A stretch of DNA of 64,000 nt from Armatimonadota bacterium (GTDB taxonomy: Bacteria; Armatimonadota; UBA5829; DTJY01), in contig JANYKG010000042.1 of NCBI GenBank assembly GCA_025358205.1, positions 1 through 64,000 on the forward strand, given 5' to 3'. Below the pieces are notes generated by a model. That model did no database searches, had not been told where the DNA came from, and was given only the letters and a program-made list of their open reading frames with translations. A program made the position numbers and the translations under genes. Every line of letters starts with the position of its first letter. Within the stretch, counting starts at the first letter, position 1. Below are positions 2,239 to 61,880 of the stretch, piece by piece.

Positions 2239-2349
2239 AGTATCTCCTATGGGGAATGGTCAATGGTCCGCGGCGCTAGCGCCGCTCCTCCTCCGGCGTC
2301 CCTAAGGACGCCTCCCGAGGTCAATGGTTGATGGTGAAGTCGTCGGCGA

Positions 2350-2736
2350 TCAGTCGCTACCTAAGTAGGCGATGGCCTCGATCTCCACGCGAACGTCCTT
2401 GGGCAGTCGGCTGACCTGCACAGTGGCGCGAGCGGGAGTCTCGCCGGTGAAGTAGTTTGCATAAACCTCGTTCACAGCCGCAAAGTCGTTCATATCCACC
2501 AGAAAGATCGTCGTCTTCACCACATCATTTAAGGAAGCGCTTGAGTCCTCCACTATGCAGCGGATGCTCTTCAATACGCGGTCAGCCTGTTCGGCCGTTG
2601 TCTCGCCCACTATCTCGCCCGTCTCAGGGTCAAGCGGAATCTGGCCGGATATGAACAGAAACCCGCCGGCTTTCACTCCTTGCGAGTACGGTCCGACAGC
2701 TTTTGGCGCTCTTTCTGTCTTGATCGGATGCTTCAT
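2350..2736 (-). CDS. ridA: RidA family enamine/imine deaminase
   Basis: [44 protein letters not shown]...; start at 2736 rather than the longer ORF-track start. Confidence 0.92.
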
Positions 2737-2772
2737 GGTGCGAAACCTCCATACACTAAATTGGACTGGATT

Positions 2773-2801
2773 ATTATACTCAGACGAGTCTGCCACAGCA
2801 A
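2773..2801 (-). promoter_or_regulatory. Putative sigma70 promoter of ridA
   Basis: On the minus strand TTGCTG-N17-TATAAT upstream of ridA; the spacer contains the inverted repeat CAGAC-GA-GTCTG (2781-2792). Confidence 0.55.
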
Positions 2802-2832
2802 CCTCAACTATCCGCAGTATCTGCAGCGCTAC

Positions 2833-2861
2833 TTCACCCGCTAGGCCCCAGGTGGTATAAT
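2833..2861 (+). promoter_or_regulatory. Putative promoter of the alkaline phosphatase gene
   Basis: TTCACC-N17-TATAAT about 30 bp upstream of the start codon at 2893. Confidence 0.45.
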
Positions 2862-2892
2862 GAACTGCAATCCCCCCTAACAGGAGTAACCG

Positions 2893-3993
2893 ATGAACAA
2901 GCGCAGACTGGTTTTGTTTTCCCTTATCGCACTGATGGCTCTGGCATGTATGCCGATGCATGCTGCACCAGCGCCGAAGAACGTGATCCTTCTCATAGGC
3001 GACGGCATGGGTCCGGCGCAGGTCTCTCTTGCCCGGTTGTCGTCCGGCAAGGCATTGGCCATGGATTCGATGCCGGTTGCAGGTTTCGCCAAGACCCAGT
3101 CGGCAAATTCAGCCGTGACGGATTCCGCTGCTGCAGGTACGGCCCTAGCGACCGGACACAAGACGAACAACGGCATGATTGGCGTGCTACCTGACGAGAC
3201 GGATATCGGGACCATACTGGAAACGGCGGAGAAACTGGGCAAGGCGACGGGACTCCTCAGTACCGTCATGATAACGGACGCCACGCCCGCCGCGTTTGCA
3301 TCACACACCAAGACGCGGAAGGACCAAGTGGGCATTGCCCCTCAGCTTGTGCAGGAGAAGGTGGACGTTATCCTGGGCGGCGGAAGGCAGTTTTTCACTC
3401 CCAAGTCCCAGACCGGAAGCAAGCGCACAGATGAGACGGACGTGATAGCTCAGGCTAAAGCGAACGGCTACGCGTATGTTGACACGCGCGAGGGTCTTCT
3501 TTCCGCGAAGGGCAACGAACTGCTCGGTCTCTTTGAGGATGCAGAGATGACGACGGAAGCCCCGGAGCCTACGCTCGCAGAGATGACGAACAAGGCGATC
3601 AGCATTCTGTCCAGAGACAAGGACGGATTCTTCGTGATGATCGAGGGCGGTCAGATTGACCGGAAATGCCATGCGAATGATGCCCCCGGTGCGATCAAAC
3701 AGACACTTGATTTCAGCGATGCGGTCGGCAAGGCGCTGGAATTCGCACGGAAGCAGGGCAACACGCTCGTAGTCGTGACTGCAGACCATGAGACCGGCGG
3801 CCTGACGATCCTTGGCTCAGAAGAGGGCGGGAATGCAATTACGCCGAATTTCGCGACCAAAAGCCACTCGGCGGTCAATGTCCCGGTCTTCGCTTTTGGA
3901 CCCGGTTCAGAGACCTTCGGCGGTGTGATGGAAAACACTGATATATCGAAGAAGATCGCCAAGCTCTGGGGCGTGAAGGGATTCGCGAACTAG
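2893..3993 (+). CDS. Secreted alkaline phosphatase
   Basis: Signal peptide, then [44 protein letters not shown] and [11 protein letters not shown] motifs of the alkaline phosphatase superfamily. Confidence 0.92.
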
Positions 3994-4083
3994 GGAATGA
4001 AGGGAATGGTTCATGGCTAATGGTCAATGAGGAGACATCTACGATACGGGGCCCTCATCAACCATGAAACATCAGCCATTCCC
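3991..4083. repeat. Heptamer arrays in inverted arrangement between convergent genes
   Basis: ATG at 4006, 4013, 4020, 4027 (7-nt steps, plus 3997) on + strand; CAT at 4056, 4063, 4070, 4077 (7-nt steps) for the opposite strand. GGGAATGGTTCATGG (4002-4016) pairs with CCATGAA (4062-4068) plus CCATTCCC (4076-4083). Confidence 0.75.
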
Positions 4084-4097
4084 ACACTTTGCCACGA

Positions 4098-6044
4098 CTA
4101 CCATCCGCCGCCGCCACCGCCGCCACCGCCGCCGCCCGATGAGCCTCCTCCGCCACCACCGCTGCTGAACCCGGAGCTGGACCCCGGTGCGACGGATGAC
4201 GAGGCAACCGCACCTGAAAGCGAGTTGCCGATGGATGAGGTGAATGAACCGAGCGCGGCGCCCGTGTAGACTCCGCTGGTGAACGCGCGACCCGAATACC
4301 AGTCCGGCTCATACGCCTGACCCGCAGCCGCAGCAGCGGCCAGCACAGCCGCGAACTTCTCCGCCCACTCTTGTTCCACGTCGAGCGCCAGTGCATAGGG
4401 GAGATATTTCTCGAAGACCTCTGGGGTCTTTTCCGGCGGGTTCATCGTGTTCAGTTCGTCCTTCTCCGCAACGGACATGTAGAGACGGAACCCCTCGATC
4501 TTGTCCATCAGCGCGCGCCCCTTGGCTGTCGGCGCTTTGAGAAGCTGGTAAAACAGAACATTCATGGCCCCAAGCGTAACCGCCAGCAGAGCGAACAGCG
4601 GGGTGCCCTGGGAAAGAAGAATGACAATTCCGGCAACATCGGCAATAAAGAACGGGATTACTGCCACTGTCGAGCATCCCGCTCCGACGCAGCCAAGTCC
4701 GGTAGCGGGCGCTTTCCACGCACGGATGATACCGCCGATCATTGCGTATAGGCCGAAGGTCCAACCGGTGACCCAGATACTTAGGAAGATAACCACCGCG
4801 GCCTTCTCTTCTGGCATGTTCGTAGCGGCAGCCACGAATGCGATAATGGATAGAATAACGGCAGGAACCATGTAGACCGTGTTCCGCGCGAAGTAGCCCT
4901 TACCGTACAGTCGTGACAGCGATGTCTTCAGCGCCTCAATGGCGGCGGCTATGTCTGTGTGGTTCTCGGTCTTCAGGACAATGCTGTTGCCGGAGTCAAA
5001 CAGCTTGACCGCTGCGCCCTGCTCTTCCGCCGAGAGAAGTGAGCTGTTCTCGGCCTTGTATTCGCTGATGGTGTAGACATTCTTTTCTTCCTCAATCTTC
5101 ACGTAACGCTTCACGCCCATATTAATCAGCGCGGCAGAAAATGCCTTGTTGTCATACCCCATGCGCCTGATATACCGCATGGCCGCCGGTGAGAGACCGT
5201 CAGGCGGCTCGTAGAGCGGGATGATGACGCCCTTCTTCGGGTCGCGCCCGACCTTCGACCAAACCGCCAAATAGTACAGAAGCGCCGCCAGGAACCCGAT
5301 CACAGCCACGACGAGGCCGAGGTTGCTCGTGATCATGTGTGCGGCCTTTTCCTGCTGGGTTGGCTCCCGGACGATACCCTTCGGCCATCCGACCACGATG
5401 GTCAGGTTCTGATTAGCGCCCAGTGGTTGAGTGGTGTGGAAGACCGCTCGGCCCGACGCATCAACAACCGCCTGGTAATTCTTCTCCTTCGATCCCTCTG
5501 CACCGGTATATCCCTCCAGCTTGATGTCCGCCGGTTTCACTTGCCCGGGGAGCGTTACCACCGCCGAAACCTGATCCATAGAGAACGGCCAACCGGTGCC
5601 GGTGACGTTCCAGTACAGTTCATCGTGGTCAGTGAAAAAACCCAGTTGATGGTCGGTCTTGTAGGTGATGATGTAGGTGTGCCTGCCGGGCGTCACGAGG
5701 ACATCCGCGCTGCCCATTTTCACCCGCTTGCCGTTGGACAGACCTTCAACGGAGAAAGGTTCCGGCTGGCCGTCGCGCGTGACCGACTCGACATCGAACC
5801 CGACGATGTAGTTCTTGCCCTTGTCGTCCGTGTATTCCGTCGGGAAATCGCGGTAGATACCGTGGTTGATCTTGATGCCTGCAGCCACGACCTTGATGGT
5901 TTCCTGCACGGTCATGGAGCCGTCCTGATGCACGGCGATGTCGCTGTGGAATGACAGGATACGCTCGGTATCCTGAGCAGCGACCGGAATGGCCGCAAGT
6001 ATGCACAGCAGCGTCAGAACGGGAACAAGTAGTCTGCTTTTCAT
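4098..6044 (-). CDS. DUF2207 domain membrane protein with poly-Gly C-terminal tail
   Basis: N-term signal, RILSFHSDIAVHQDGSMTVQETIKVVA...GIYRDFPTEY, TM segments, GGGGGGSSGGGGGGGGGGGW tail. Confidence 0.9.
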   Translation of the reverse strand: MKSRLLVPVLTLLCILAAIPVAAQDTERILSFHSDIAVHQDGSMTVQETIKVVAAGIKINHGIYRDFPTEYTDDKGKNYIVGFDVESVTRDGQPEPFSVEGLSNGKRVKMGSADVLVTPGRHTYIITYKTDHQLGFFTDHDELYWNVTGTGWPFSMDQVSAVVTLPGQVKPADIKLEGYTGAEGSKEKNYQAVVDASGRAVFHTTQPLGANQNLTIVVGWPKGIVREPTQQEKAAHMITSNLGLVVAVIGFLAALLYYLAVWSKVGRDPKKGVIIPLYEPPDGLSPAAMRYIRRMGYDNKAFSAALINMGVKRYVKIEEEKNVYTISEYKAENSSLLSAEEQGAAVKLFDSGNSIVLKTENHTDIAAAIEALKTSLSRLYGKGYFARNTVYMVPAVILSIIAFVAAATNMPEEKAAVVIFLSIWVTGWTFGLYAMIGGIIRAWKAPATGLGCVGAGCSTVAVIPFFIADVAGIVILLSQGTPLFALLAVTLGAMNVLFYQLLKAPTAKGRALMDKIEGFRLYMSVAEKDELNTMNPPEKTPEVFEKYLPYALALDVEQEWAEKFAAVLAAAAAAGQAYEPDWYSGRAFTSGVYTGAALGSFTSSIGNSLSGAVASSSVAPGSSSGFSSGGGGGGSSGGGGGGGGGGGW

Positions 6045-6073
6045 CTTCGTCTCCGATCTACTTCAGGGTTACC

Positions 6074-6142
6074 GGTTTCGGGTTTCGGGTGTCAGGGTCC
6101 CGTCACTGTTCACCGTTCACTGCCCACTGTTCACTTCTCACC
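6074..6142. repeat. Compound heptamer array filling the LemA to DUF2207 spacer
   Basis: GGTTTCG GGTTTCG GGTGTCA GGGTCCC (6074-6101), then ACTGTTC ACCGTTC ACTGCCC ACTGTTC ACTTCTC (6105-6139). Confidence 0.85.
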
Positions 6143-6694
6143 GAACCCCACCTCCGGCGCTGACCGCTCGGTGGCGAGTTCGATCTCGAAGAACTCCTCT
6201 GCCTTGAAGCCGGTCATGCCTGCCAGGACGTTGTTTGGGAAGGTCTGAATGAGTATGTTGTAGTCGCGCACGCTGCCGTTGTAGTAGCGCCGGGCGTACT
6301 GAATCTGGTCCTCTATCTCCGCCAGATTCTCCTGCAGCTTCATGAAGTTGGCACTCGCTTTCAGGTCGGGGTACGCTTCGGCGACGGCAAAAAGCGACTT
6401 GATCTGCTGGGACAGGACATTCTCGTTCGGTGTCTTCTCGCCGGGGGTGGACGCGCTCATAGACTTGGTGCGCGTCTCGGCGATCTCCTCGAAGATGGCG
6501 CTCTCGTGCTTGCTGTAGCCCTTCACAGTCTCCACGAGGTTGGGGACAAGGTCATACCGCCGCTTGAGCTGAACGTCAATGCCGCTCCACGCCTCGCGCA
6601 CCATGTTCCGCGCGCGAATCATGCGGTTGTAGGTCACGATAGGGAGAGCCAGCAGCACGACTACGACGGCAATAATCCACATGTGCGACTCCAT
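6131..6694 (-). CDS. lemA: LemA family protein
   Basis: MWIIAVVVVLLALPIVTYNRMIRARNMVREAWSGIDVQLKRRYDLVPNLVETVKGY...; start could also be 6682. Confidence 0.92.
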   Translation of the reverse strand: MESHMWIIAVVVVLLALPIVTYNRMIRARNMVREAWSGIDVQLKRRYDLVPNLVETVKGYSKHESAIFEEIAETRTKSMSASTPGEKTPNENVLSQQIKSLFAVAEAYPDLKASANFMKLQENLAEIEDQIQYARRYYNGSVRDYNILIQTFPNNVLAGMTGFKAEEFFEIELATERSAPEVGFGEK

Positions 6695-6789
6695 TCTGAA
6701 GGTTCCGGGCTCGTCCGACGTAGCCTTGGCGTAGTCGGATGTCGGGTTTCAGGCCTAGAGTTACACGGAAGGGTCGTGTATTCCTCCCG

Positions 6790-7311
6790 TCAGCGTGTGG
6801 CAAGTGCCAGTTCGAGCGCTTCCTCCGGGCTGTATCCGAGTCTATCAGCAATGATGTGGTGAGGAAACGCCTTAATCATCGTGTTGAAAGCGCGGACGGC
6901 GTAGTTGTAGTAGTGACGCGCGGACTGGAGATCGTTCTCGACCTCGGTCAGCACGGATTGGAGCCGCAGATGCTCCCGGTCGGCCTTCAGGACCGGGTAG
7001 TTGGCTGTCACGGCAAGCAGGTTTTTGATCTGCGCGGAGAACAGTCCCTCGGCACGGCCCTTCTCCTCTGGAGAGGTGCATTCGAGGCAGTGATCGCGCG
7101 TGCAGTTGATGTCTTCAATGGCGGTAGTCTCATGCTCGGCATACTGCTGGAGGGTGATCACCAGGCTTGCGATAACGTCGTGGCGACGTTTCAGGTGGGC
7201 ATCAACGTCTTTCCAGGCGCGCTGAACTCGGTTGCCGGCAACCGCCACTCTGTGGAACGCGTTCAGGCCGTATCCGCCCAGCAAAAGAATCACCGCTGGT
7301 ATGATCCACAT
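6790..7311 (-). CDS. LemA family protein (divergent tandem paralogue)
   Basis: MWIIPAVILLLGGYGLNAFHRVAVAGNRVQRAWKDVDAHLKRRHDVIASLVITLQQYAEHE...ARHYYNYAVRAFNTMI. Confidence 0.88.
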   Translation of the reverse strand: MWIIPAVILLLGGYGLNAFHRVAVAGNRVQRAWKDVDAHLKRRHDVIASLVITLQQYAEHETTAIEDINCTRDHCLECTSPEEKGRAEGLFSAQIKNLLAVTANYPVLKADREHLRLQSVLTEVENDLQSARHYYNYAVRAFNTMIKAFPHHIIADRLGYSPEEALELALATR

Positions 7312-7330
7312 TTACGCCTCCCATTCTGAA

Positions 7331-7423
7331 GGTTTCGGGATTCGGGTTTCAGGTGTCAGAGGCAGAGTTACACGCGCATCGTGCATTTTCCTCCGAAACC
7401 TGGCACCCGACACCCGAAACCTA
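7331..7423. repeat. Inverted pair of heptamer arrays ending on the serS stop codon
   Basis: GGTTTCG GGATTCG GGTTTCA GGTGTCA (7331-7358); CGAAACC TGGCACC CGACACC CGAAACC (7394-7421) abutting the serS stop. Confidence 0.85.
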
Positions 7424-8704
7424 TTTCTGCGGCTCCAGCACCTCCACACCGCCCATATACGGACGCAGAACCTCCGGCACGACCACGCTGCCGTCCGCCT
7501 GCTGGTAGTTTTCGACCACCGCGATGAAGGTACGCGGAAGGGCCACGCCCGAGCCGTTGAGCGTATGGACGAACTCAGGCTTCGCGCCCGGCTCCCGGCG
7601 GAAGCGGATGTTCGCGCGCCTAGCCTGGTAGTCCTCAAAGTTGCTGCACGAGGAAACCTCCAGCCACTGCTGCACACCCGGCGCCCAGACTTCCAGATCG
7701 TAGGTCTTCGCACTGGTCGCGCTCATGTCGCCGGTACACAGGACGACCACGCGGTAGGTCAGCCCAAGTCCCTGAAGAACAGCCTCTGCGTTGGCGGTCA
7801 GCGTCTCAAGCTCGGCATACGATGTCTCCGGCTGGGTGAACTTCACCATCTCGACCTTGTGGAACTCGTGAACCCTGAGCAGTCCGCGTGTGTCCTTGCC
7901 CGCCGCGCCGGCCTCTCGCCGGAAGCAGGAGCTGTATCCGGTCAGGCGGATCGGCAGTTCGCGTCCGTCCAGGATGTCCTCGCGGTAGAAGTTCGTCACG
8001 GGGACTTCGGCGGTCGGGATGAGGAAAAGGTCGTCATCCGGCAGCCGGTACATATCGAATTCAAACTTCGGAAGCTGGCCGGTGCCGATCATGGAGTTGC
8101 GGTTGACCAGCAGCGGCGGGAACAGCTCCTTGTAGCCGTGCTGGGTGGTGTGCAGATCGAGCATCCAGGAGTAAAGCGCGCGCTCAAGCCGTGCGCCCAT
8201 GCCGGTGTAGCAGATGAATCCGCTGCCGCTCATGCGGGTTCCGCGCTCGAAGTCCACGAGTCCCAGGTTCGTCGCGATATCCCAGTGCGGGACCGGCTCG
8301 AAATCAAAGGTCTTCTGTGTGCCCCATTCGCGGATGACAGGGTTGTCTTCCGGGCTGTCTCCCACGGGTACGGTCGCGCTGGGCAGGTTCGGGATCAGCA
8401 GCAGTGCGCGCTGAGTTCGCTCGTCCAGTTCCTTGACCTCGACATCCAGTTCCTTGATGCGGTCCGATACCTCGCGCATGCGGGTGATTTCGGCGGACGC
8501 ATCCTGGCCCGCGCGCTTCATTTTGCTGATCTCTTCCGAGACGGTGTTCCGCAGCGCCTTGAGCTGGTCAACCTCGGTGGTCTGCTTGCGCCAAAGCTCA
8601 TCGGCTTCCAGAAACTCGTCCACGGCGGCGGCATCCATCTTCTTGTTCTTGACGCCTTGTCTTACAGCATCGGCATTCGCGCGAATGTATTTCGGATCTA
8701 GCAT
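7421..8704 (-). CDS. serS: Seryl-tRNA synthetase
   Basis: [22 protein letters not shown]...; class II motifs ([83 protein letters not shown]). Confidence 0.98.
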
Positions 8705-8734
8705 CGCACACTCCTTGGATTCTGCTCGTGCATC

Positions 8735-8826
8735 TTACTCGTACTCGTACTCCTACTCGATCCCATACGATCCCGAGTACGAGTAGGATACACGAGTATG
8801 ATTCACGTATCACTCATCACTCGTCA
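8735..8826. repeat. Compound array: TACTCN hexamers, inverted copy, then heptamers ending on a stop codon
   Basis: TACTCG TACTCG TACTCC TACTCG (8736-8759); inverted CGAGTACGAGTAGGAT (8774-8789); ATTCACG TATCACT CATCACT CGTCAG (8801-8826). Confidence 0.85.
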
Positions 8827-10170
8827 GCCGCGTATCAACCCGAGAAGCTCGGCGACCTTCTCATCCATCTGCTCCTTCGTCTTCGCCTCAACGTTCAGGC
8901 GAAGGAGCGGCTCGGTCTGGCTCGGGCGGACGTTGAACCACCAGTTCTCGAACTCAATCGTCAGGCCGTCCAGCTCGATGATGTTCCCGCTGCCGTACTT
9001 CGCCTTGATCTCCGCCAGCTTGCCGTCCACATCAGCCACCGTTGAGTTGATCTCCGGGCTGTGGAAATACCTCTGCAGCGGCTTCACCAACTCGGAGAGC
9101 GGCTTCTTCTCGTCAACCAGCAGTTGAAGCATTTTCAGCATCGCCAGTTCGCCGTTATCCGTGATGAAGAAGTTGGAGAAATAGTAGTGGCTGGAAAGCT
9201 CGCCGCCGAAGTACGCGCCAATCTCGCGCATCTTCGTCTTGATCAGCCCGTGGCCGACCTTGTACATGAACGGCTTGCCGCCTGCCGCCGCGATCTCTTC
9301 CTTCACCGCCCAACTGCTGCGGAGGTCGTACATGATGGTCGCGCCGGGCTTGTCCTTCAGCATCTCAAGGCCTATCAGCGTGGTGACCATATCGCCCGCC
9401 ACGGTCTGGCCCTTCTCGTCTACGAACGCCACGCGGTCGCCGTCGCCGTCGAAGCAGACGCCCAAGTCCGCGCCGGTCCGCAGCACGGTCGCCTTCAGTT
9501 CGGCCAGCGTCTCGTCCTTCAGCGGGTTTGCCTCGTGGTTCGGGAACCGGCCGTCGGGTATCCAGTAGAGCGGGGTCACTTCGCAGTTCTTGCCCTCGAA
9601 CAGCTTCGGCAGGGTCATGCCGATCATCCCGTTCGCGCAGTCAATAACGATCTTCAGGCCGCCGAAGTCCTTGATTCCGCTCGCCTTCAGCGCGGCTTCC
9701 ACGTACCCATCAAGCACGCACTGGCCGCCGAGGAACTTGCCAATTTTCGGTGCGGTCTCGAATTTGCCGGAATTCGCGAGGGCGTACAGGTCCTCGTTCT
9801 TAACGAAGCCGATGCTGGGACGCGCTTCCGGCCCGGTGATCTTGAGGCCGTTGTACTGGGGTGGGTTATGCGACGCTGTGAGCATCATGCCGGCATCGGC
9901 CTTGAGCGCGTTCACGGCATAGTAGTACATGGGGGTGCTGGTCATGCCGATGTGGATGACGTCACTGCCCTGCTCCATCAGCCCGCGTGCGGTCGGCTCC
10001 AGGAGCGCCGGGCCGCTCAGGCGCATGTCATAGCCAACCACGGTCAGCTTGGGTTTGAGTATCTGTGCGAACGCCCGCGCGATCCGGTACGCCACGTCCT
10101 CGTTGAACTGGTCCGGATACGTGCCGCGAACATCGTATGCCTTGAAAATACTGGGGTCAATGCGGTCCAT
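8824..10170 (-). CDS. Phosphomannomutase/phosphoglucomutase
   Basis: IFKAYDVRGTYPDQFNEDVAYRIARAFAQ, MMLTASHNPPQYNGLKI, CFDGDGDRVAFVDEKG, GELSSHYYF, RPSQTEPLLRLNVEAK. Confidence 0.95.
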   Translation of the reverse strand: MDRIDPSIFKAYDVRGTYPDQFNEDVAYRIARAFAQILKPKLTVVGYDMRLSGPALLEPTARGLMEQGSDVIHIGMTSTPMYYYAVNALKADAGMMLTASHNPPQYNGLKITGPEARPSIGFVKNEDLYALANSGKFETAPKIGKFLGGQCVLDGYVEAALKASGIKDFGGLKIVIDCANGMIGMTLPKLFEGKNCEVTPLYWIPDGRFPNHEANPLKDETLAELKATVLRTGADLGVCFDGDGDRVAFVDEKGQTVAGDMVTTLIGLEMLKDKPGATIMYDLRSSWAVKEEIAAAGGKPFMYKVGHGLIKTKMREIGAYFGGELSSHYYFSNFFITDNGELAMLKMLQLLVDEKKPLSELVKPLQRYFHSPEINSTVADVDGKLAEIKAKYGSGNIIELDGLTIEFENWWFNVRPSQTEPLLRLNVEAKTKEQMDEKVAELLGLIRG

Positions 10171-10387
10171 TGCCGACTCCTTCTATGTGCGTACTTCTGT
10201 GAAATTCAGATTGGGTGGCCGAACGTGCTTGAACACCTGACCTGCATCATTCACGAACACAGTGAATAATGCGCGAAGGCCCTGTACCGCGTCTTTCACG
10301 CTCAGTACAGGCATTGATTATACTTACCCCAAACGTGGAGTGTCAAGGCGCGAGCGTGCATTTCGCTCAACCCCGCTCTCAGGAAGG

Positions 10388-10419
10388 AATAGGAGCATGA
10401 GTGAGAGTATGAGTATGAT

Positions 10420-10420
<1 letters not shown>
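10388..10420. repeat. Degenerate hexamer array over the translation start of the ABC ATPase gene
   Basis: GGAGCAT GAGTGA GAGTAT GAGTAT GATGTGG immediately upstream of and overlapping the GTG start. Confidence 0.6.
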
Positions 10421-11918
<1,498 letters not shown>

Positions 11919-20737: not shown

Positions 20738-20787
20738 TACTGATTGGCAGTTCTGCGCAGAAAGGTAGTTGTCCTCCTGTGGATAGC

Positions 20788-20815
20788 GTGTGGGAGTATG
20801 GGCGTGTGGGAGGAG
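20788..20815. repeat. Octamer array downstream of rpoN
   Basis: GTGTGGGA GTATGGGC GTGTGGGA GGAG. Confidence 0.65.
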
Positions 20816-29200: not shown

Positions 29201-29328
29201 CAGGTGTTAGGTGGTTGGTGGTAGGTGTTAGTCCAATTCTCGTACTCTTACTCCTACTCGTACTTGTACTCGAAAACCTTTGGTGCAGCGCCAGTTCTCC
29301 GTAATGCGTATACCGTATTTCGTATCCG
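29201..29328. repeat. Compound array of three families: heptamer, hexamer, heptamer
   Basis: CAGGTGT TAGGTGG TTGGTGG TAGGTGT (29201-29228); TACTCT TACTCC TACTCG TACTTG TACTCG (29243-29272); GTAATGC GTATACC GTATTTC GTATCCG (29301-29328). Confidence 0.88.
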
Positions 29329-30504: not shown

Positions 30505-30513
30505 AAACCGCGC

Positions 30514-30595
30514 ACGAGTGATATGTGATACGTGAACCGCCGCCGGAGGCCGCGCGGTCTCCATAAACAGTTCACTCATCACTCGTCACTCCTCA
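30514..30595. repeat. Inverted heptamer arrays around a GC-rich insert, ending on a stop codon
   Basis: ACGAGTG ATATGTG ATACGTG (30514-30534); TCACTCA TCACTCG TCACTCC TCA (30572-30595), the last TCA being the stop of the CBM9/DUF5916-like gene. Confidence 0.85.
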
Positions 30596-32587
30596 GATTG
30601 GTCTTATCAGCTTCAGAAGGATCGCGTTCTTCGTCTCGTCGGAGTTCGGATCGCCGTAGACCAGGTAGGCGTCCATGCCGGCTCGCACACGCTGACGGTA
30701 CGCCATGTAGAGGTTCGCCTTGCCTTCTCGCCAGATAACGCGGCCGAGCAGCCCCTTCTCCGGGCTGATGTCGTAAGTCACGCCGAGGATGGTCTGACGG
30801 TTCGTCCCCGCGTATGGGCTAGGAGCGCTGATCTGCGAATACTCCGTGTAGACCTGCGCGCTCAGATGATCCGACAGGCGCAAGCCCTGGTTGAGCTGGT
30901 AGTACCGATAGCTGCCACCAACCCGCCTACCGACATTCAGCGAAATTCCGCCCGCGCGATAGAGGTCGTTCGATCCCCAGCCGTACTCCACCGTGCCGTA
31001 ATTGTCGTGAAACTGCAACCGGTGATAGTTGTTGTGGCGGAGAAACAGATACTGGCCGTTGCGCCAGTTCAGGTTGAATGAAGGCTCGACCGTGTTCCAG
31101 TACGGCTCACCATTCAGCACTTGATCGGCATCCTGAAGCCACAGGCCCCAACCCCGAAAGCTGACTTTGCCCTTCTGCGGCGAATCCCACCACTCCAGCT
31201 TAGTGCCCCATGATTCAAAGTTGTGGTCTGATGAGACTCCCAGATATGGTATGAAATCGCTGTCCCTGTCCTGCCGCTCCAGCAGCACAGCAAGTTTTCG
31301 CGGTCCGTTGTTCGTGCCTATGGTCCACCGGCTGTAATCGCCGTGACCAGCCGTGCCGTCGTTGTCCGTGTTCATGTACGTATAGTGGAAATCCGTCGAG
31401 CTGGTCGGGCCGTGACGCCACTTGTAGTCGGCGCTTGACCAGGTAGAGAGGTAGTCGGCGCCTTCGACCTGGCTCAGGACGCCGCCGGTCCAGATGGAGA
31501 AATCCTTCTGAGCGCCGAACTGCCGAGTGAGTTCCAGAACGCTGTTCGACTCATGCCCGAAGTTGTTCGCGTTCATGAACCCGGCCTGGTAATCGCCCAC
31601 CATGCCGACGAGCTTTGCCCCCGCGTCGAAGTCTCTAATTCGCCGCGTGTAGTAGATTCCGGAGCCGGGGAAGTACTGCTTGCCCTCACGGAAGAAGAGC
31701 CTGTTGTCGCCGAGCGCGCGCTCGTTGTACGTGAAGTCCACGCTGTCCACTTCCTGCTCCACATCGCGGAAATATGGGTTGACCGTCAGCAGGCCCGTCA
31801 GACTTGGGGTGAGTGCGTACTTCACGTCCGCGCCCGCCCTGACCGACGAGTCGCCCGAGCCGGCGCCCGCGAGCGCGTACAGCAGCGTAACAGGCTTCGG
31901 ATGCATAGATGGCGGCTGCACGCCTTCCCACAGGTAGAATCTTGTCAGGTCTACCGTCTTGCCCAGGTTGGGCGCCACCCAGTCCTGCTGCAGACGAGGA
32001 TGCCATCGGTCAAATGCGACGCTGATCCTGGGGTTCTTCTCATCGTACTTCAGAATGGAGAACGGTATGCGCATTTCGACCGTGTAGCCGCCCGGGTTCC
32101 GCTTAGCCGCCGCGTCCCAGTCGCCGACCCACTCTGTCTTGCCTGTCTCGGACGACTGGACCTGATGCGTCTGCGTGCCGGCGGCATTGACCCGAAAGTA
32201 GCAGCCCGAGTCGTTTCGGAACTCGCTGAACATGTCCAGGTAGACGGTGACATTGTCATCCGAATGCAAGTTACCGCCGCGTTTCACCTGCTGGGCGGTG
32301 ATCTTGTCAGGTTGGGAATCCTTGCAGTCGAAGGCGACGTAGATGTACTTGGCGTCGTGAGCAATCCGAGCGGTGGTCTGCTCCTGTGGGGGAATGCCGC
32401 TGTCCAGATAGACAAATTCCGTAACTGGCTGCACGGACTGCCAGCACTCGTCCGAGAGATCGCCGTCGATCGTTGGCGGTTTGTCGAGCGTGACGGCCTT
32501 CAGCGTCGGCTGAGCGCCCATGCAGGCCCCGGCGGCCATCGCCAGGATAGCGATCAAAAGCAGATGTGGTAACGCGCGTGTAGACAT
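30593..32587 (-). CDS. Secreted DUF5916/CBM9-like beta-barrel protein
   Basis: KPPTIDGDLSDECWQSVQPVTEFVYLDSGIPPQEQTTARIAHDAKYIYVAFDCKDSQPDKI; RLFFREGKQYFPGSGIYYTRRIRDFDAGAKLVGMVGDYQAGFMN. Confidence 0.85.
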   Translation of the reverse strand: MSTRALPHLLLIAILAMAAGACMGAQPTLKAVTLDKPPTIDGDLSDECWQSVQPVTEFVYLDSGIPPQEQTTARIAHDAKYIYVAFDCKDSQPDKITAQQVKRGGNLHSDDNVTVYLDMFSEFRNDSGCYFRVNAAGTQTHQVQSSETGKTEWVGDWDAAAKRNPGGYTVEMRIPFSILKYDEKNPRISVAFDRWHPRLQQDWVAPNLGKTVDLTRFYLWEGVQPPSMHPKPVTLLYALAGAGSGDSSVRAGADVKYALTPSLTGLLTVNPYFRDVEQEVDSVDFTYNERALGDNRLFFREGKQYFPGSGIYYTRRIRDFDAGAKLVGMVGDYQAGFMNANNFGHESNSVLELTRQFGAQKDFSIWTGGVLSQVEGADYLSTWSSADYKWRHGPTSSTDFHYTYMNTDNDGTAGHGDYSRWTIGTNNGPRKLAVLLERQDRDSDFIPYLGVSSDHNFESWGTKLEWWDSPQKGKVSFRGWGLWLQDADQVLNGEPYWNTVEPSFNLNWRNGQYLFLRHNNYHRLQFHDNYGTVEYGWGSNDLYRAGGISLNVGRRVGGSYRYYQLNQGLRLSDHLSAQVYTEYSQISAPSPYAGTNRQTILGVTYDISPEKGLLGRVIWREGKANLYMAYRQRVRAGMDAYLVYGDPNSDETKNAILLKLIRPI

Positions 32588-33359: not shown

Positions 33360-33478
33360 GCACGGTAGCCCTCATTCTACCTGTATGACGAGATCAGACG
33401 CGGAAAAGATTCATCGGCCAAGAGAATTGTCTCATGATCGGTGTGGAGACTATCGTTGTCCGGTCCCGAGGATTCGGT

Positions 33479-33534
33479 GTTGGGCGTTGAGGGTTGAACG
33501 TTGGACGTTCGCAACCATCCGCCATTCCCCATCA
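33479..33534. repeat. Compound heptamer array starting on the hydC stop codon
   Basis: GTTGGGC GTTGAGG GTTGAAC GTTGGAC (33479-33506), then CAACCAT CCGCCAT TCCCCAT (33512-33532) reaching TCA (stop, minus strand). Confidence 0.85.
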
Positions 33535-34035
33535 TTTCTCCACGTGGTATTTCTCCAGGATATCGGGGATCTGGTCTGGGGTCAGGCGGCCGTAGACATC
33601 GTCGCCAATCGTGAGCACGGGGGCCAGTCCGCACGCGCCGATGCAGCGGGTTTCCAGCAGCGTGAACAAACCGTCCTCGGTCGTCTCGCCGGTGCGTATG
33701 CCGATCTGCTGCTTGATGGTGTCCAGAATCGCGGGCGCCCCTTTCACGTAGCAGGCGGTTCCCATGCAGACGGAAATCGGGTACTTGCCGCGCGGAATGA
33801 GCGTGAAGTGCGAGTAGAAGGTCGCCACACCGTAGACGTAGGCGGTCGGCACCTGCATCTTGTCGGCCACGAAATCCATCACCTCGGTCGGCAGATAGCC
33901 GAACAGCTCCTGCGCCCGGTGCAGCACGGGGATCAGCGCGCCCTGAGCCTCCACCGGATCGGGATGCGCTTCTATAAAGGCGGACAGCTCCGTCAGTTTT
34001 TCAGATTCGGTCAGTTTGCATTCGGTACAAGACAT
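33532..34035 (-). CDS. hydC: NuoE/HydC-like [2Fe-2S] subunit of a bifurcating [FeFe]-hydrogenase
   Basis: LIPVLHRAQELFGYLPTEVMDFVADKMQVPTAYVYGVATFYSHF...CMGTACYVKGAPAIL...LLETRCIGACGLAPVLTIGDDVYG. ATG at 34035 (ORF-track TTG start is less likely). Confidence 0.93.
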   Translation of the reverse strand: MSCTECKLTESEKLTELSAFIEAHPDPVEAQGALIPVLHRAQELFGYLPTEVMDFVADKMQVPTAYVYGVATFYSHFTLIPRGKYPISVCMGTACYVKGAPAILDTIKQQIGIRTGETTEDGLFTLLETRCIGACGLAPVLTIGDDVYGRLTPDQIPDILEKYHVEK

Positions 34036-34042
34036 GGCGTAC

Positions 34043-34077
34043 TCCAAATTCGAAATCCGAAATCCGAAATTCGAAAC
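34043..34077. repeat. Heptamer array directly upstream of hydC
   Basis: TCCAAAT TCGAAAT CCGAAAT CCGAAAT TCGAAAC, five in-phase units. Confidence 0.9.
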
Positions 34078-34165
34078 AACTCCAAAAGTGCGAATGGGAA
34101 AATGCCAAAACTCCAGACTAAGGCGCTTGTTTGGTGCATTTCCCTTTCACTGATTTGCCGGTTGT

Positions 34166-34193
34166 TTCGTGCTTCGTGCTTCGAATTTCGTGC
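34166..34193. repeat. Heptamer array just downstream of the hydA stop
   Basis: TTCGTGC TTCGTGC TTCGAAT TTCGTGC. Confidence 0.9.
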
Positions 34194-34202
34194 TTTCCCT
34201 CA

Positions 34203-35972
34203 CTAAGGTTTATTCTCTCTCCTCGATATTCCCACCGGCAGCCGGGACACCAGCTTCGTGTGAAGCAGCTTGTGCGACTTCTCTGAGAGCGGCGCCCCAA
34301 GGTACTCCCGGTAGAGCCGCTGCACCCATGGGTTCTCATACGACCTGCGAATCGTCTTGCTCCGGTCTTCGGAGCGCAGTGCGTCCGCGCGCTTCTTCAG
34401 GAGCTTCTCGTCCAGCGGTATCGAGCCGGTGGTGCGCGCATAAGGCTGGCCGCCGCCGCCGATGCACCCGCCGGGGCACCCCATGATCTCCACGAAATGA
34501 GCTTCTTCTTTCCCGTCACGTATGGACCGCAGCAGGGTGTGCGCGTTCTGCAGGCCGTGCGCCACCGCGAACTTGTAGTCCGTCCCGCCGATGTTGATCG
34601 TCTGCCGCTTCACCCATTCCATCGAGCGCAGTCCATCGAACTCGATGTCCACCAGCGTTTCACCGGTGATGAAGTAGTAGACCGACCGAAGTACGCTCTC
34701 AGCCAGCCCGCCGGTCCACCCGAAGATCGAGCCGCCGCCGGTGGAATCGCCCAGCGGATCATCGAACTCCTCGTCCGGCAGGTTCATGAAGTCAATGCCG
34801 TTGCTCTTGATCAGCCAGATCAGCTCCCGGGTGGTCATCACCGCATCCACAGCAGGCGTATTCTCGTCCAACCAGCACTGGTGTCGAGCGGCCTCGAACT
34901 TCTTGGCCGTGCAGCACATGGCACCCACGCTGTAGATATTTTCCTTGGGGATGCCGGCCTTCTCAGCGTAGTAGGTCTTGGCCAGCGAACCGAGAATGCT
35001 CATCGGCGACTTGGTGCTGGACAGGTTCGGCAGCATGTCGTGGTAGAAGTTCTCGGCGAACTTGATCCACGCCGAAGAGCAGGAGGTGATCAACGGGAAC
35101 GGCCCACCGGCCTTCACTCGCTCGATGAACTCCATGCCCTCTTCCATGATGTTCACGTCCGCGCCGACCTCGGTATCGAACACCGCGTCGAACCCAATCA
35201 GCCTGAGCGCCGAGACGATCTTCTTCTGCAGCGGGACACCCGGCTTGATGCCAAACCCCTCGCCGATGGCCGCGCGAACCGACGGCGCGAACTGCACCAC
35301 CACGTGCTTGTTCGGGTCGGCAAGCGCTCTCATAACGTTATGAACCGCGTCCTTCTCCAGGAACGCGGCGGTGGGACAGGCGTTGATGCACTGGCCGCAC
35401 GTGCTGCACACACTGTCGTTGAACGGCAGGTTGTACGCCGGCATGACGACGGTCTTGAACCCCCGGCTGTGGTACCCCAGGCAGTGGATGCCCTGCACCT
35501 CGCCGCAAATGCGCACGCACCGGTGGCACATAACGCACTTATCCGGTACGCGGATGACGCCCGGCGATGAATAGTCGTTCTCGTAATGCTTCCGTTCGCC
35601 CTCGAAAAATCGTTCGCGGACGCCGGTGGAGTAGGCCAGGTCCTGAAGCTCGCAGTTGCCGTCGCGCTCGCAGGTCTGGCAGTCGGTCGGGTGGTTGTCC
35701 AGCAGGAGTTCTACTATGTCGCGCCTGATCTCGCGAATTTCGGGCGTGATCGTACGGACGACCATGCCTTCCTCGACCGGGTAGGCGCACGAGGCCGGGA
35801 GACTCCGCATCCCCTCGACCTCCACGATGCACACCCGGCACGCACCCTCCACGCTCAACCGTGGATGGTAGCACAGGCGCGGCACCTTCACCCCGATCTT
35901 CTCCGCCGCGCTCATGATGGTGGTTCCTTCCGGCACACTGACCGGTTTTCCGTCTATCGTAAGGTTAATCAT
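34203..35972 (-). CDS. hydA: [FeFe]-hydrogenase catalytic subunit (HydA)
   Basis: N-term 2Fe-2S and 4Fe-4S domains; H-cluster region PLITSCSSAWIKFAENFYHDMLPNLSSTKSP, YSVGAMCCTAKKFEAARHQ, FVEIMGCPGGCIGGGGQPY. Confidence 0.94.
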   Translation of the reverse strand: MINLTIDGKPVSVPEGTTIMSAAEKIGVKVPRLCYHPRLSVEGACRVCIVEVEGMRSLPASCAYPVEEGMVVRTITPEIREIRRDIVELLLDNHPTDCQTCERDGNCELQDLAYSTGVRERFFEGERKHYENDYSSPGVIRVPDKCVMCHRCVRICGEVQGIHCLGYHSRGFKTVVMPAYNLPFNDSVCSTCGQCINACPTAAFLEKDAVHNVMRALADPNKHVVVQFAPSVRAAIGEGFGIKPGVPLQKKIVSALRLIGFDAVFDTEVGADVNIMEEGMEFIERVKAGGPFPLITSCSSAWIKFAENFYHDMLPNLSSTKSPMSILGSLAKTYYAEKAGIPKENIYSVGAMCCTAKKFEAARHQCWLDENTPAVDAVMTTRELIWLIKSNGIDFMNLPDEEFDDPLGDSTGGGSIFGWTGGLAESVLRSVYYFITGETLVDIEFDGLRSMEWVKRQTINIGGTDYKFAVAHGLQNAHTLLRSIRDGKEEAHFVEIMGCPGGCIGGGGQPYARTTGSIPLDEKLLKKRADALRSEDRSKTIRRSYENPWVQRLYREYLGAPLSEKSHKLLHTKLVSRLPVGISRRENKP

Positions 35973-35987
35973 GTAGACTCTAGCCTC

Positions 35988-36017
35988 TTACTCTTACTCC
36001 TACTCGTACTCTTACTC
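35988..36017. repeat. Hexamer array filling the methyltransferase-hydA spacer
   Basis: TTACTC TTACTC CTACTC GTACTC TTACTC (five perfect-phase hexamers) containing the TAA stop of the methyltransferase at 36012-36014. Confidence 0.9.
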
Positions 36018-37573: not shown

Positions 37574-37629
37574 CTCCCACACTCCCACACACCCGCACTC
37601 CAATACTCCAGTACTCCAAGTGTCCCCTA
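37574..37629. repeat. Perfectly phased octamer array (7 x 8 bp) ending on the hydB stop codon
   Basis: CTCCCACA CTCCCACA CACCCGCA CTCCAATA CTCCAGTA CTCCAAGT GTCCCCTA; final CTA = hydB stop (TAG). Confidence 0.92.
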
Positions 37630-39417: not shown

Positions 39418-39447
39418 AAGATGCTGTTCCTTCGAAGTGATGGTCAC

Positions 39448-39510
39448 GGTTTCCGGTTTCCGGTTTCCGGTGTCCGTGATCCCGCAATCCGTAACCTGAC
39501 ACCCGCAACC
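39448..39510. repeat. Inverted heptamer arrays between ferredoxin gene and hydB
   Basis: GGTTTCC GGTTTCC GGTTTCC GGTGTCC (39448-39475); CGCAATC CGTAACC TGACACC CGCAACC (39483-39510). Confidence 0.9.
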
Positions 39511-39516
39511 GGATTG

Positions 39517-41826: not shown

Positions 41827-41884
41827 GGTAGCGCCGGCATCTTGCCGGCTTTGTCCGGAATGCCGCCGAGACGGCGGCGCTACC
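41827..41884. repeat. Palindromic dispersed element, copy 1
   Basis: GGTAGCGCCGGCATCTTGCCGGCTTTGTCCGGAATGCCGCCGAGACGGCGGCGCTACC; terminal inverted GGTAGCGCCG/CGGCGCTACC. Confidence 0.85.
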
Positions 41885-41885
41885 C

Positions 41886-42951: not shown

Positions 42952-42998
42952 GGTAGTGTCGGCATATTCCGGAATGCCGCCGGGACGGCAGCGCTACC
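42952..42998. repeat. Palindromic dispersed element, copy 2
   Basis: GGTAGTGTCGGCATATTCCGGAATGCCGCCGGGACGGCAGCGCTACC; same orientation and ends as copy 1. Confidence 0.85.
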
Positions 42999-48083: not shown

Positions 48084-48117
48084 CTCGTTCTCGTGAATCG
48101 TACTCGTGCTCGTGATC
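48084..48117. repeat. Degenerate CTCGTG hexamer array
   Basis: CTCGTT CTCGTG AATCGTA CTCGTG CTCGTG between divergent genes. Confidence 0.6.
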
Positions 48118-51963: not shown

Positions 51964-53286
51964 ATGTCTGACACATGCACAACAAGCGGATCGGCGAAGG
52001 CGCATGAACCCGTAAGCGTCTTCTACATCGTCGCGTTGTGTATGTTCACCATCGGCACGTCCAGCGTATCGTTCTGCTCGAACCAGGTGCTGCCGCTGAC
52101 CATGAAGAGGTTCACGGACAGCACCATGCTGATCGGGTTTGTGGTCGCGCTTCAGGCGCTCAACCAGCTTTGGGTGACGCCTTACGCCGCATGGAAGTCC
52201 GACCGAATCTGGACGCGAATCGGACGTCGCAAGCCGCTTGTACTTATCATCACCCCGCTCCTCGCTGTGACCATATTCATGGTACCGCACATGCCTGCTC
52301 TGTGGATGATCATCCCCTGGGTGTTCATCCTGCAGATGGCCGAGGATGCCGACCAAGCGGTGCTGATGCCTGCGATATGCGATTCCGTGCCGGACAAGCA
52401 AAGACCGATGGCGACGGCGATGTGGCAGGTGGCGGTGGGCGTTTCGGCGTTCGTGATGGGCCGCTATGTTATGAAGTTGATGGACCCAGGGGTGCATGAA
52501 CTCATCCTTCGCAAGCTCGGCATCAACCTTCACCTCGCCAGCCTGCAGGGCGCCGAACACTGGCCTTACACGGTTTCGGCGGTCACCGTTGTGATCACGG
52601 GAATCATCTTCCTGTTCGTCATGAGAGAGCGCTACGTCGAGCCGAGACCGCTGGACAAGTTCCGGCTCTTCTCCTACGGCAAAGAGGTATTTCAGATCAG
52701 GGAGCACAAGCTGATCTACATCATATTCCTCTTTCAACCGCTGTTCTACCTTGTGGCTATCGCCTTCTTTCCGCTGCTGGCCAAAGAGCAGTTGCACATG
52801 AAGCCTTCCCAGTACGGGACCGCGTTCGCCTGGAGTTCGGTCGTTACACTCACGACGGCGATCCCCATGGGCTGGCTGTTCAACCGGTTCAAGCACCGCA
52901 GGGCGTTCTGCATCGGCGCGTGCGCATACGCCGTCCTGCCGCTCACCTACGGGCTGTTCTTCATGCACACCGCGCGCGACATGGCGATCTTCTTCGCCGC
53001 CCAGATCGTGGCGTTCAACGTCTTCCGCTTCAACTTCATGCCATACGTGATGGAGTACACCACGCACAAGAACGTCGGGACCATCCTCGGCTTCACGACA
53101 GCCGTGAACGGTCTGGTTCGCTTCACCATGCTGCCGTTGTTCGGGCTTCTGGTGGACCTATCCGGCAAGAACTACAAACTGCCGCTGTATGGAGGCTATG
53201 TCGGGGCGGTGGTGTGCATCATCGCGCTGCTCATGATGCGCCCGCCGGAGAAAGCGATGGCGGGAGAGGGAATGGCTGATGGTTAA
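51964..53286 (+). CDS. MFS transporter (paralogue 1)
   Basis: 12-TM pattern; TPYAAWKSDRIWTRIGRRKPLVLIITPLLAVTIFMVP. Confidence 0.88.
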   Translation: MSDTCTTSGSAKAHEPVSVFYIVALCMFTIGTSSVSFCSNQVLPLTMKRFTDSTMLIGFVVALQALNQLWVTPYAAWKSDRIWTRIGRRKPLVLIITPLLAVTIFMVPHMPALWMIIPWVFILQMAEDADQAVLMPAICDSVPDKQRPMATAMWQVAVGVSAFVMGRYVMKLMDPGVHELILRKLGINLHLASLQGAEHWPYTVSAVTVVITGIIFLFVMRERYVEPRPLDKFRLFSYGKEVFQIREHKLIYIIFLFQPLFYLVAIAFFPLLAKEQLHMKPSQYGTAFAWSSVVTLTTAIPMGWLFNRFKHRRAFCIGACAYAVLPLTYGLFFMHTARDMAIFFAAQIVAFNVFRFNFMPYVMEYTTHKNVGTILGFTTAVNGLVRFTMLPLFGLLVDLSGKNYKLPLYGGYVGAVVCIIALLMMRPPEKAMAGEGMADG

Positions 53287-53309
53287 TGGAAAATGGTTGA
53301 TGGTAAATG
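53268..53309. repeat. ATG-ladder heptamer array spanning an MFS stop and a GH2 start
   Basis: Six ATGs at 53272, 53279, 53286, 53293, 53300, 53307, exactly 7 nt apart; MFS stop TAA at 53284-53286, GH2 ORF start 53279. Confidence 0.93.
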
Positions 53310-55984: not shown

Positions 55985-56172
55985 GTTGTGAACAAACCAG
56001 ACGCTCGCGTCGTCAAAGATAAAGGAAATGATATTTCCCAAGGTTTGTTCACGCCAAGAAGGTTAATAGGCGAACTTTGGGTAACAGCATATGTTAGAAT
56101 GTTCGCGTCGCTTGGCAATAGAGGCATAATGCCTTGGCGACCAGCAATCATGATTAGCGCAAGGAAGGCTCA

Positions 56173-57546: not shown

Positions 57547-57571
57547 CCCAAAGTCAGGTGTTAGGCCACTC

Positions 57572-57595
57572 TTACTCTTACTTGTACTCGTACTC
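57572..57595. repeat. Hexamer array between convergent genes
   Basis: TTACTC TTACTT GTACTC GTACTC, preceded by CAGGTGTTAGG as at 29201. Confidence 0.82.
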
Positions 57596-57669
57596 GGCAT
57601 CTATTCTCGCTCGAAAACGCAGCAGCTCGGAGCGCAGTCTGAAGACCAACGGCTGCCCGGCCATAAAGC

Positions 57670-60408: not shown

Positions 60409-60538
60409 TTTGACCCTCCTGGCCTGCGCTGTTCATGAACAGGATGAATAAGGCTATTATATCCAATGCAGGGTAGCATCCACGCCTAGTGCTTGTCAAA
60501 CATTTCCCATTTCGTACTTATTCATATCCACAGTTCGA

Positions 60539-61759
60539 TCAATACCGATTGCGCACACCCGCGAGTTGGAATGCCGCGCCGAGCAGCATCAAGCTCATGG
60601 CTACGAGGAAGGCGAACTTCATGTCAATGCCCCAGTGTCCCAGCGATGCGATCATGCCAGCGCCGACCAACGGCCCGACTGTGCCGCGGATGCCGAGCAG
60701 AAACGAGTGCAGCGCCTGGTACTGCGATTCTTTGCCGTCTCGGGCGAAGTACAGTATGCTGTTGAAGTAGCCCAGCTCCACACCGCCCATCGTCACGCCG
60801 TTGATTATCGCCGTGGGAACCAACATCCACACGTTTCGCGCGAGGAAGTAGTTTAACGGCACCAGCGAAACCAGCAGCACGTTTATCACCACTGCGCGCA
60901 ACGGGCTGCGCACGTCAACGTATTTGCCCCAGTAGAAGTATGAGATCATCCAGATGACGGTTGTCAGATTCGATAGAAGCGCTATCTGCAGCGCGGTGAT
61001 GTGCAGCCGGTCTACCTGGAAAACCGGATACAGCGGCGCGACTAGCAGGTTCCCGAATCCGAAGACGAACACAGAGAGGGCAAACCATGCGTAGTTTCTA
61101 TCCTCGTTCAGGATGGCAAGCGTGTCCTTCAGAAACTTCAGCGTTGACGTGCGCTTGTTGTCCGGATGGTTCGGGTCCACATCAGCAGTCTTGACCGTGC
61201 CGAAGATGAGCGCGCTAGCTACTCCCAGGAGTCCGGCTATGGGAAATATGTGCGTGAAATCCACATTGCCGCGCTTCATGAGCTGGCCCACGATGAGTGT
61301 GGATGCAAATGTGGTGGCTGCCAGCCCCACGCGGATGTAGGCCATAATCCGCCCCCTATGCTCGTCCGGGTACACCTCCTTCATCACAGCGGCGTAGGCG
61401 GGCGAGGCGACCGTGGCGATCATCTGGATGACGGACACCAGTACCGCGAACCGCAGAGGCGTGGTGGCGAAAAGCATGAGCACAAACAGCAAGCGTGCGA
61501 TGGCGCAAGACCACACAACGTATGGTATCTTCTTTCGGCCTTCCATGGCGTTTGCCCAGAACAGGGCGAACATATTGCCGATGAATGGCGCGGCCGTCAT
61601 CACGCTGATCAGGACGACGCTGGCGTGCAGCCTGTCCCGCGCGATGAACCCTACGAACGGGAATATGGCCCCGGTGTACAGGCCCAGCAGCGCACCCGCC
61701 AGTGAGTCCCGCCGATATGCATCCCTCGCCTCAATTGGAATCGCCTTCTCAAAAAACAC
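60539..61759 (-). CDS. MFS transporter (unrelated to the 52-57 kb pair)
   Basis: Multiple TM helices; SLAGALLGLYTGAIFPFVGFIARDRLHASVVLISVMTAAPFIGNMFALFWANAMEGRKKIPYVV. Confidence 0.85.
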   Translation of the reverse strand: MFFEKAIPIEARDAYRRDSLAGALLGLYTGAIFPFVGFIARDRLHASVVLISVMTAAPFIGNMFALFWANAMEGRKKIPYVVWSCAIARLLFVLMLFATTPLRFAVLVSVIQMIATVASPAYAAVMKEVYPDEHRGRIMAYIRVGLAATTFASTLIVGQLMKRGNVDFTHIFPIAGLLGVASALIFGTVKTADVDPNHPDNKRTSTLKFLKDTLAILNEDRNYAWFALSVFVFGFGNLLVAPLYPVFQVDRLHITALQIALLSNLTTVIWMISYFYWGKYVDVRSPLRAVVINVLLVSLVPLNYFLARNVWMLVPTAIINGVTMGGVELGYFNSILYFARDGKESQYQALHSFLLGIRGTVGPLVGAGMIASLGHWGIDMKFAFLVAMSLMLLGAAFQLAGVRNRY

Positions 61760-61779
61760 CTTCGCCTGCTCCTATCCAG

Positions 61780-61849
61780 AATCTCAAATCTCGGATATCA
61801 AATCTGAGATCCTGAATCTGGAACCTTACTCATACTCATACTCTTACTC
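61780..61849. repeat. Heptamer array followed by hexamer array
   Basis: AATCTCA AATCTCG GATATCA AATCTGA GATCCTG AATCTGG (61780-61821); TTACTC ATACTC ATACTC TTACTC (61826-61849). Confidence 0.9.
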
Positions 61850-61880
61850 TCGCCAGGAAACCTCCGCAATCTGCAATGAA

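Follow-up and report, generated by a model that had tools for sequence, protein, structure and literature searches.

The DNA analysed here (hereafter the window) is the 64-kb contig C40, with 58.5% G+C, from the assembly of an Armatimonadota bacterium (host assembly G000; 4.08 Mb in 200 contigs). It contains a full-length copy of a hairpin element, which we call the TTCG element, at 34046–34195 on the plus strand. According to Pfam, the copy lies between a hydA-like gene (34203–35972, minus strand), which is an [FeFe]-hydrogenase large-subunit gene, and a thioredoxin-like [2Fe-2S] gene (33532–33954, minus strand). Its outer arms are arrays of 7-bp units (heptads) that read AAATTCG AAATCCG AAATCCG AAATTCG AAACAA ... 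TTGTTTCG TGCTTCG TGCTTCG AATTTCG, and its interior is an inner imperfect hairpin. The left-arm array (34046–34076) carries TTCGGAT and TTCGAAT units on the minus strand and was detected by Tandem Repeats Finder (TRF) at period 7 and by the covariance model described below. The right-arm array (34163–34195, plus strand) carries TTCGTGC and TTCGAAT units and was detected by TRF, by the covariance model and by a search with the 20-mer GTTTCGTGCTTCGTGCTTCG, which it holds. The region 34035–34200 folds below its shuffles with a z-score (fold z) of -3.1. The genes between 33532 and 39447 resemble an electron-bifurcating [FeFe]-hydrogenase operon (thioredoxin-like [2Fe-2S], Fe-only hydrogenase and NuoF-like genes), and several arrays are located in the spacers of this region.

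The covariance model was built from 18 copies of the TTCG element, all of which come from phyla other than that of the host. This outside-only model matches the window copy over its full length (cmsearch; model positions 1–141, 102 bits, E=3e-18) and finds more copies in G000 and in G003, a genome of the host's family. The remaining 59 genomes from the class and phylum of the host yield no match. The original prediction, which was made from the letters of the window, had placed the arrays "in this lineage"; the element is instead nearly absent from the host's class and phylum (2/61 genomes) and common elsewhere. The exact 20-mer GTTTCGTGCTTCGTGCTTCG occurs at more than 100 loci, some of them in complete chromosomes, from Desulfobacterota, Omnitrophota, Planctomycetota, Verrucomicrobiota, several Patescibacteria, Alpha- and Gammaproteobacteria, Methylomirabilota, Aminicenantes, Eisenbacteria, Bacteroidia and TA06. 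Most of the inspected loci share one imperfect palindrome, AAATCCGAAATCCGAATATCGAAATCCGAAACAA...TTGTTTCGTGCTTCGTGCTTCGGATTTCGGATTT, with sharp ends and unrelated flanks, and all-against-all BLAST likewise delimits a unit of ~160 bp between unrelated flanks. The element is ~140–160 bp long (median 159 bp at the inspected loci), ends sharply at AAATYCG...CGRATTT, is present in many copies per genome and retains 70–94% identity along its whole length between genomes and phyla. Both this discrete ~140–160-bp element and the inverted-pair (hairpin) layout of the arrays had been missed by the original prediction.

The inspected TTCG copies of G000 and G003 have conserved outer heptads and mostly unrelated interiors, with the exception of one G003 pair that has a common interior. 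In every set, the TTCGNNN runs draw their triplets mostly from TGC, GAT, AAT and ATA, the order of which varies; the TTCG core is set by the search pattern. Some 20-mer loci are bare arrays that lack the second arm (e.g. L041, L049 and L061). The TTCGTGC/TTCGTGT arrays at L061 and L049, from Granulosicoccus and Planctomycetota assemblies, are very long, and the arms elsewhere have four units. A GC-rich hairpin (like ACTGGGGACCCGCCCGCAGGGTGGGGAGTCCGAAGGACCA) recurs in the TTCG-element arms of several Desulfobacterota (L038, L046, L058, L059, L068, L075, L077 and L088), as if it targets heptad arrays. The window has no Rfam match above the gathering score.

The original prediction had listed about 20 intergenic arrays with periods of 6, 7 or 8 bp across the window and had likened them to the short tandemly repeated repetitive (STRR) sequences of cyanobacteria. 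At 20 of the 21 listed sites, the best lag-6, lag-7 or lag-8 segment was compared with 300 dinucleotide shuffles of the same spacer. The arrays are real: at least one of these periods is significant (p<0.01) at 19/20 sites, the sole failure being 6700–6745 (p=0.08), and TRF finds most of the arrays at the predicted positions. In the window, intergenic identity exceeds that of shuffles at lag 6 (z=5.5) and lag 7 (z=5.2). Statistics for G000 as a whole were taken from sampled stretches of up to 572 kb. In a 325-kb sample, intergenic lag-7 identity lies 8.5 standard deviations above shuffles, with harmonics at lags 14 and 21 (z=5.2 and 7.9, respectively). Coding identity at lag 7 stays at background (0.249), and coding DNA shows codon periodicity only. 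This sample contains 21 strong intergenic arrays of period 7, eight of period 6 and five of period 8, compared with ~0.1 or fewer each in shuffles; the corresponding counts in 572 kb are 30 heptad, 9 hexad and 5 octad arrays (expected ~0.1). The relatives are patchy, with 12 heptad arrays per 400 kb in G003 and none in the 100 kb scanned in each of G002, G004 and G012. Positions changed within units are distributed approximately as expected for random mutation, and the differences between units are rich in transitions.

These data support a multi-family, period-keeping intergenic system that resembles the STRR sequences, with several adjustments. The location is mostly intergenic; the exceptions are the CACTGTT array at 6103–6143, which overlaps the stop of a LemA-family gene, and the array at 53271–53309, which contains a predicted gene start. 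The proposed anchoring to genes is reduced to a mild bias, with arrays in 36/211 tandem, 4/37 convergent and 2/45 divergent spacers; within tandem spacers, arrays are closer to stops than to starts (26 vs 18). Many word families do keep the period, as predicted, but the words recur within the genome, and TTCG(TGC/AAT/GAT/ATA) is exact across many phyla. The array words thus form recurring families dispersed within G000 and are not unrelated between arrays. A wider sharing of words with other phyla, beyond TTCG, was considered and set aside: 7 words are shared and letter permutation gives 1.9 on average, but TTCG relatives account for part of the excess. A general grammar of a 4-base core plus a 3-base letter is seen in the TTCG family, where the pattern used for the search itself selects the core, but is not supported as a property of all arrays.

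The inverted layout was scored by searching for a partner within 300 bp (score ≥13), with direct, reversed and complement-only partners as controls. An inverted partner is present in 13/49 G000 arrays, compared with 4 direct, 1 reversed and 0 complement-only partners. In other phyla, 138/285 arrays have an inverted partner and 31 a direct one. Unlike STRR-type direct repeats, roughly one array in four, or more, does not stand alone; the remainder do. Several window spacers fold far below their shuffles, with fold z values as low as -8.3. The TCAC family forms a hairpin of two heptad arms of ~25–28 bp around a variable loop at three sampled G000 sites (L009, L182 and L189) and at 30516–30595 in the window. 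Hairpins are also nested: the loops of AGGTGTT hairpins hold ATGG or GTTGAAC-type arrays (L182:17977, an ATGG array, and L021:2564).

Sister genomes of Desulfobacterota reveal how such spacers change. At one site, the TTCG element is retained in four of five sisters (G118, G120, G121 and G122) with small unit differences; in G120 a GC-rich insert replaces one arm, and in G119 the site holds unrelated DNA. Because these four genomes were assembled separately and keep the element at the orthologous position, an assembly artefact is ruled out for the arrays, if only indirectly. At one operon-internal spacer, the family is switched: bin435 carries the TTCG element, BM002 a nested ATGTGAG/AATCCG/CAAATTC hairpin, ALJrbin.32 GATTGCG, CAGAAGT and CTGACAC arrays, and CSMAG_2358 GGTTTCAGTGTTCAGG/CTGACACC arrays. 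Large-scale synteny between bin435 and ALJrbin.32 is limited to ~18 collinear kb. Between L062 and L147, the right arm is kept and the remainder is replaced by a GATGTGA hairpin, and further switches are seen at other orthologous sites. The switching between families that the original prediction had asked about is thus observed, as a plain tally of a few cases, and the switched spacers keep the period and the inverted layout. Other changes include unit gain and insertion of a nested GC-rich hairpin (L046 vs L091, 92% identical) and, in 2/5 sisters, an imprecise deletion that removed an octad hairpin. The coding identity of the sisters is ~75–94%, so the spacers had time to diverge.

Besides the TTCG element, the window contains further hairpins with periodic arms. 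A GGTTTCG/GGTGTCA heptad hairpin (7330–7421; fold z -8.3 for 7322–7424; inverted-partner score 17) fills the spacer up to the stop of a seryl-tRNA synthetase gene. A TACTCN hexamer hairpin (8716–8806; fold z -6.1 for 8715–8830; lag-6 p<0.01) is directly followed by a TCAC heptad array (8803–8827). An ATGG-family heptad hairpin (GGGAATGGTTCATGGCTAATGGTCAATGAGG / CCTCATCAACCATGAAACATCAGCCATTCCC) lies at 4002–4083 (fold z -3.8 for 3985–4100; lag-7 p<0.01), and the TCAC-family hairpin at 30516–30595 (GAGTGATATGTGATACGTGAAC ... GTTCACTCATCACTCGTCACTC; fold z -3.8 for 30510–30600) has a GC-rich palindrome in its loop. The segment 61775–61850 (fold z -3.6 for 61770–61860; TRF and shuffle test) consists of an AATCTCA heptad hairpin (61775–61822) and a TACTCA hexamer array (61827–61850). 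Where the NuoF-like gene has its start codon, a CGGTTTC heptad array is accompanied by a weaker inverted partner, CCGTAACCTGACACCCGCAACCGG (39447–39512; TRF; p<0.01; fold z -2.0; inverted score 12).

Two compound arrays have no inverted partner: a GGTTTCG array abutting the CACTGTT array (6066–6143; TRF and shuffle test; fold z +1.4), and an AGGTGTT heptad array that gives way to TACTCN hexamers (29202–29272; TRF, shuffle test and inverted-partner scan). TRF and the shuffle test also identify TACTCN hexamer arrays at 35985–36017 and 57568–57596, a GAGTAT hexamer array at 10393–10418, a CTCGTG hexamer array at 48084–48114, CTCCCACA octamers at 37574–37619, GCGTGTGG octamers at 20786–20812 (p=0.003) and an ATGG-family heptad array at 53271–53309. 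The predicted ATG (53279) of a 901-aa glycosyl hydrolase 2-type open reading frame lies inside this last array, which indicates that arrays of ATGG words can create start codons. The shuffle test further identifies a GTTGAAC-family heptad array at 33473–33509 and an ATGGTTA-family array at 2253–2330 that is broken by two GC-rich palindromes (GCGGCGCTAGCGCCGC and GGCGTCCCTAAGGACGCC, within 2266–2320). Repeated GC-rich palindromes that resemble repetitive extragenic palindromic (REP) sequences (GGTAGCGCCGGCATCTTGCCGGC...GCCGCCGAGACGGCGGCGCTACC) and differ from the heptad arrays are present at 41833–41885 and 42966–42998.

We interpret the arrays mostly as whole or eroded arms of small non-autonomous palindromic elements of several families, ~80–200 bp in length, that colonise spacers in the manner of miniature inverted-repeat transposable elements (MITEs) or of REP doublets (REPINs), and we assign this reading a probability of about 0.6. 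A large share of the repeats form the arms of hairpin elements, one of which recurs almost unchanged in many phyla, so they look like unrecognised mini mobile elements and not like random stutter. A unit that is dispersed, sharply bounded and inverted-repeat, with unrelated flanks, is best read as a non-autonomous mobile element. The heptad arms themselves are best read as slippage products, since unit changes are approximately random by position and an excess of heptamers has been linked to the contact length of the polymerase (Rehm et al., 2015, PMC4692102). The 7-bp period would arise when replication slips by approximately the footprint of a polymerase and the units are later altered by point mutation; the arms may be held in register by pairing in single-stranded DNA or RNA. 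The elements would be moved in trans by some enzyme that leaves no visible target-site duplication. They probably reached other phyla through horizontal transfer, as suggested by the cross-phylum identity together with the gap in the host's own phylum. Elements at 3' ends and inside operons may be mainly tolerated and could serve as hairpins at mRNA 3' ends or in spacers. Spacers would turn over as new elements insert into older ones and older ones are deleted, so that period and palindromy are kept while the words change.

Several observations weigh against this interpretation. About half or more of the G000 arrays have no inverted partner, and the fold z of some window spacers is near zero. 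The paired positions of the TTCG consensus are invariant, so covariation carries no information on whether the hairpin structure is selected. No clean pair of filled and empty sites was seen among the orthologous spacers, which differ wholesale, and neither a target-site duplication nor a target motif recurs consistently in the inspected flanks. No mobiliser was found; no parent transposon was identified either, although transposase genes enclosed by two arms were not searched for systematically. Among candidate enzymes, REP-associated tyrosine transposases (RAYTs; Y1 family) were examined in cis and are not supported: the flanks of the Y1 loci in the relatives and in the 23 carrier genomes are not enriched in arrays (8 arrays per 100 kb in the carriers, compared with a background of 20), and the element-rich G120 has no Y1 match. 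Loss of the SbcCD hairpin nuclease as a permissive condition was rejected as well, as TIGR00619 matches above its cut-off in the host and in array-free family relatives.

It is improbable that the arrays are REPIN-like elements mobilised by RAYT (Y1/HUH) transposases. Extragenic inverted doublets that form predicted hairpins and lack target-site duplications would fit such mobilisation, as would the presence of RAYT (Y1_Tnp) genes in 20/23 carriers, drafts included, and in array-rich G000 and G003, compared with their absence from array-poor G002, G004, G005 and G012. In known systems, however, REPs adjoin RAYT genes (Bertels and Rainey, 2011, PMC3116915), whereas the RAYT flanks here are poorer in arrays than the background, the RAYT locus of the host contains no arrays, and G001 has four Y1 matches yet no arrays in 46 kb; the Y1-free, element-rich G120 argues in the same direction. 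Purely local slippage, in which STRR-like repeats arise in each spacer by 6–8-bp polymerase slippage, drift by point mutation and never move, with common words due to convergence, is unlikely. The known bacterial heptamer excess attributed to polymerase contact length (PMC4692102), the nearly random placement of unit changes, their richness in transitions and the many unpaired arrays are consistent with it. For the TTCG family, it is refuted by the full-length cross-phylum matches (~160 bp, 70–94% identity), and inverted pairing far above controls and dispersed within-genome copies with unrelated flanks also contradict it.

Two arrays, at 39447 and 53271, lie close to start codons, and the TTCG family combines an invariant core with variable triplets; these features could also point to binding sites for a post-transcriptional or nucleoid protein at 7-bp spacing, as proposed for the TAACTGA repeats upstream of start codons (MacGregor, 2015, PMC4679880). 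Such a role is very improbable as the explanation of the arrays: orthologous spacers differ in the family that they carry, divergent (promoter) spacers seldom hold arrays, those in tandem spacers lie nearer stops than starts, and general core conservation within arrays is not supported.

Among published systems, those with a single heptamer word (PMC4679880, PMC4692102) and REPINs (PMC3116915) come closest. The STRR sequences of heterocystous cyanobacteria and the heptameric simple sequence repeats of Xanthomonas and Nostoc (GGGAATC, GGGGA(T/C)T; PMC4692102) share with the present arrays an intergenic, degenerate 7-bp tandem layout whose length and sequence vary between close relatives; here, in contrast, there are many word families, additional 6- and 8-bp arrays, many inverted pairs with ends, and one element that crosses phyla. 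The TAACTGA direct repeats of Beggiatoaceae, Cyanobacteria and Bacteroidetes are likewise intergenic heptamer arrays with a patchy cross-phylum distribution that suggests horizontal transfer and with no known mechanism. Those arrays are direct (1 inverted/170), in a genome with few related heptamers (PMC4679880), whereas here many families occur and hairpins are common; TAACTGA is not among the heptad words of the sampled G000 stretches. REPs and REPINs with their RAYTs (PMC3116915) are also extragenic inverted doublets with predicted hairpins, dispersed, non-autonomous and often clustered, but the arms here are heptad arrays instead of a single REP, one element crosses phyla, and RAYT genes show no enrichment of arrays beside them. 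MITEs share the size range (~100–400 bp), terminal inverted repeats, dispersal in spacers with unrelated flanks and nesting, and the TTCG family fits this description, except that the inspected flanks show no target-site duplication and no parent transposon is identified. Literature searches, which covered open-licence papers only and are therefore weak evidence of absence, returned no description of the TTCG element, and we know of none.

A doubtful but possible extension is that all these cases belong to one class of bacterial mobile DNA marked by geometry and not by sequence, namely palindromes with 7-bp-phased arms and many interchangeable word families. A common mechanism, able to read or to generate the 7-bp phasing, would have spread them across phyla; the STRR, TAACTGA and Xanthomonas heptamers would then be local cases. 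The arms of hairpin elements, and not stray microsatellites, are a possible origin for the heptamer arrays of cyanobacteria, Beggiatoaceae and xanthomonads, for which an origin has been lacking so far. Since orthologous spacers switch between families, the TTCG element among them, the turnover of intergenic DNA can be measured directly. A non-coding element of ~140–160 bp that is near-intact in Patescibacteria, Omnitrophota, Desulfobacterota and the host would be unusually widespread for a small non-coding bacterial repeat.
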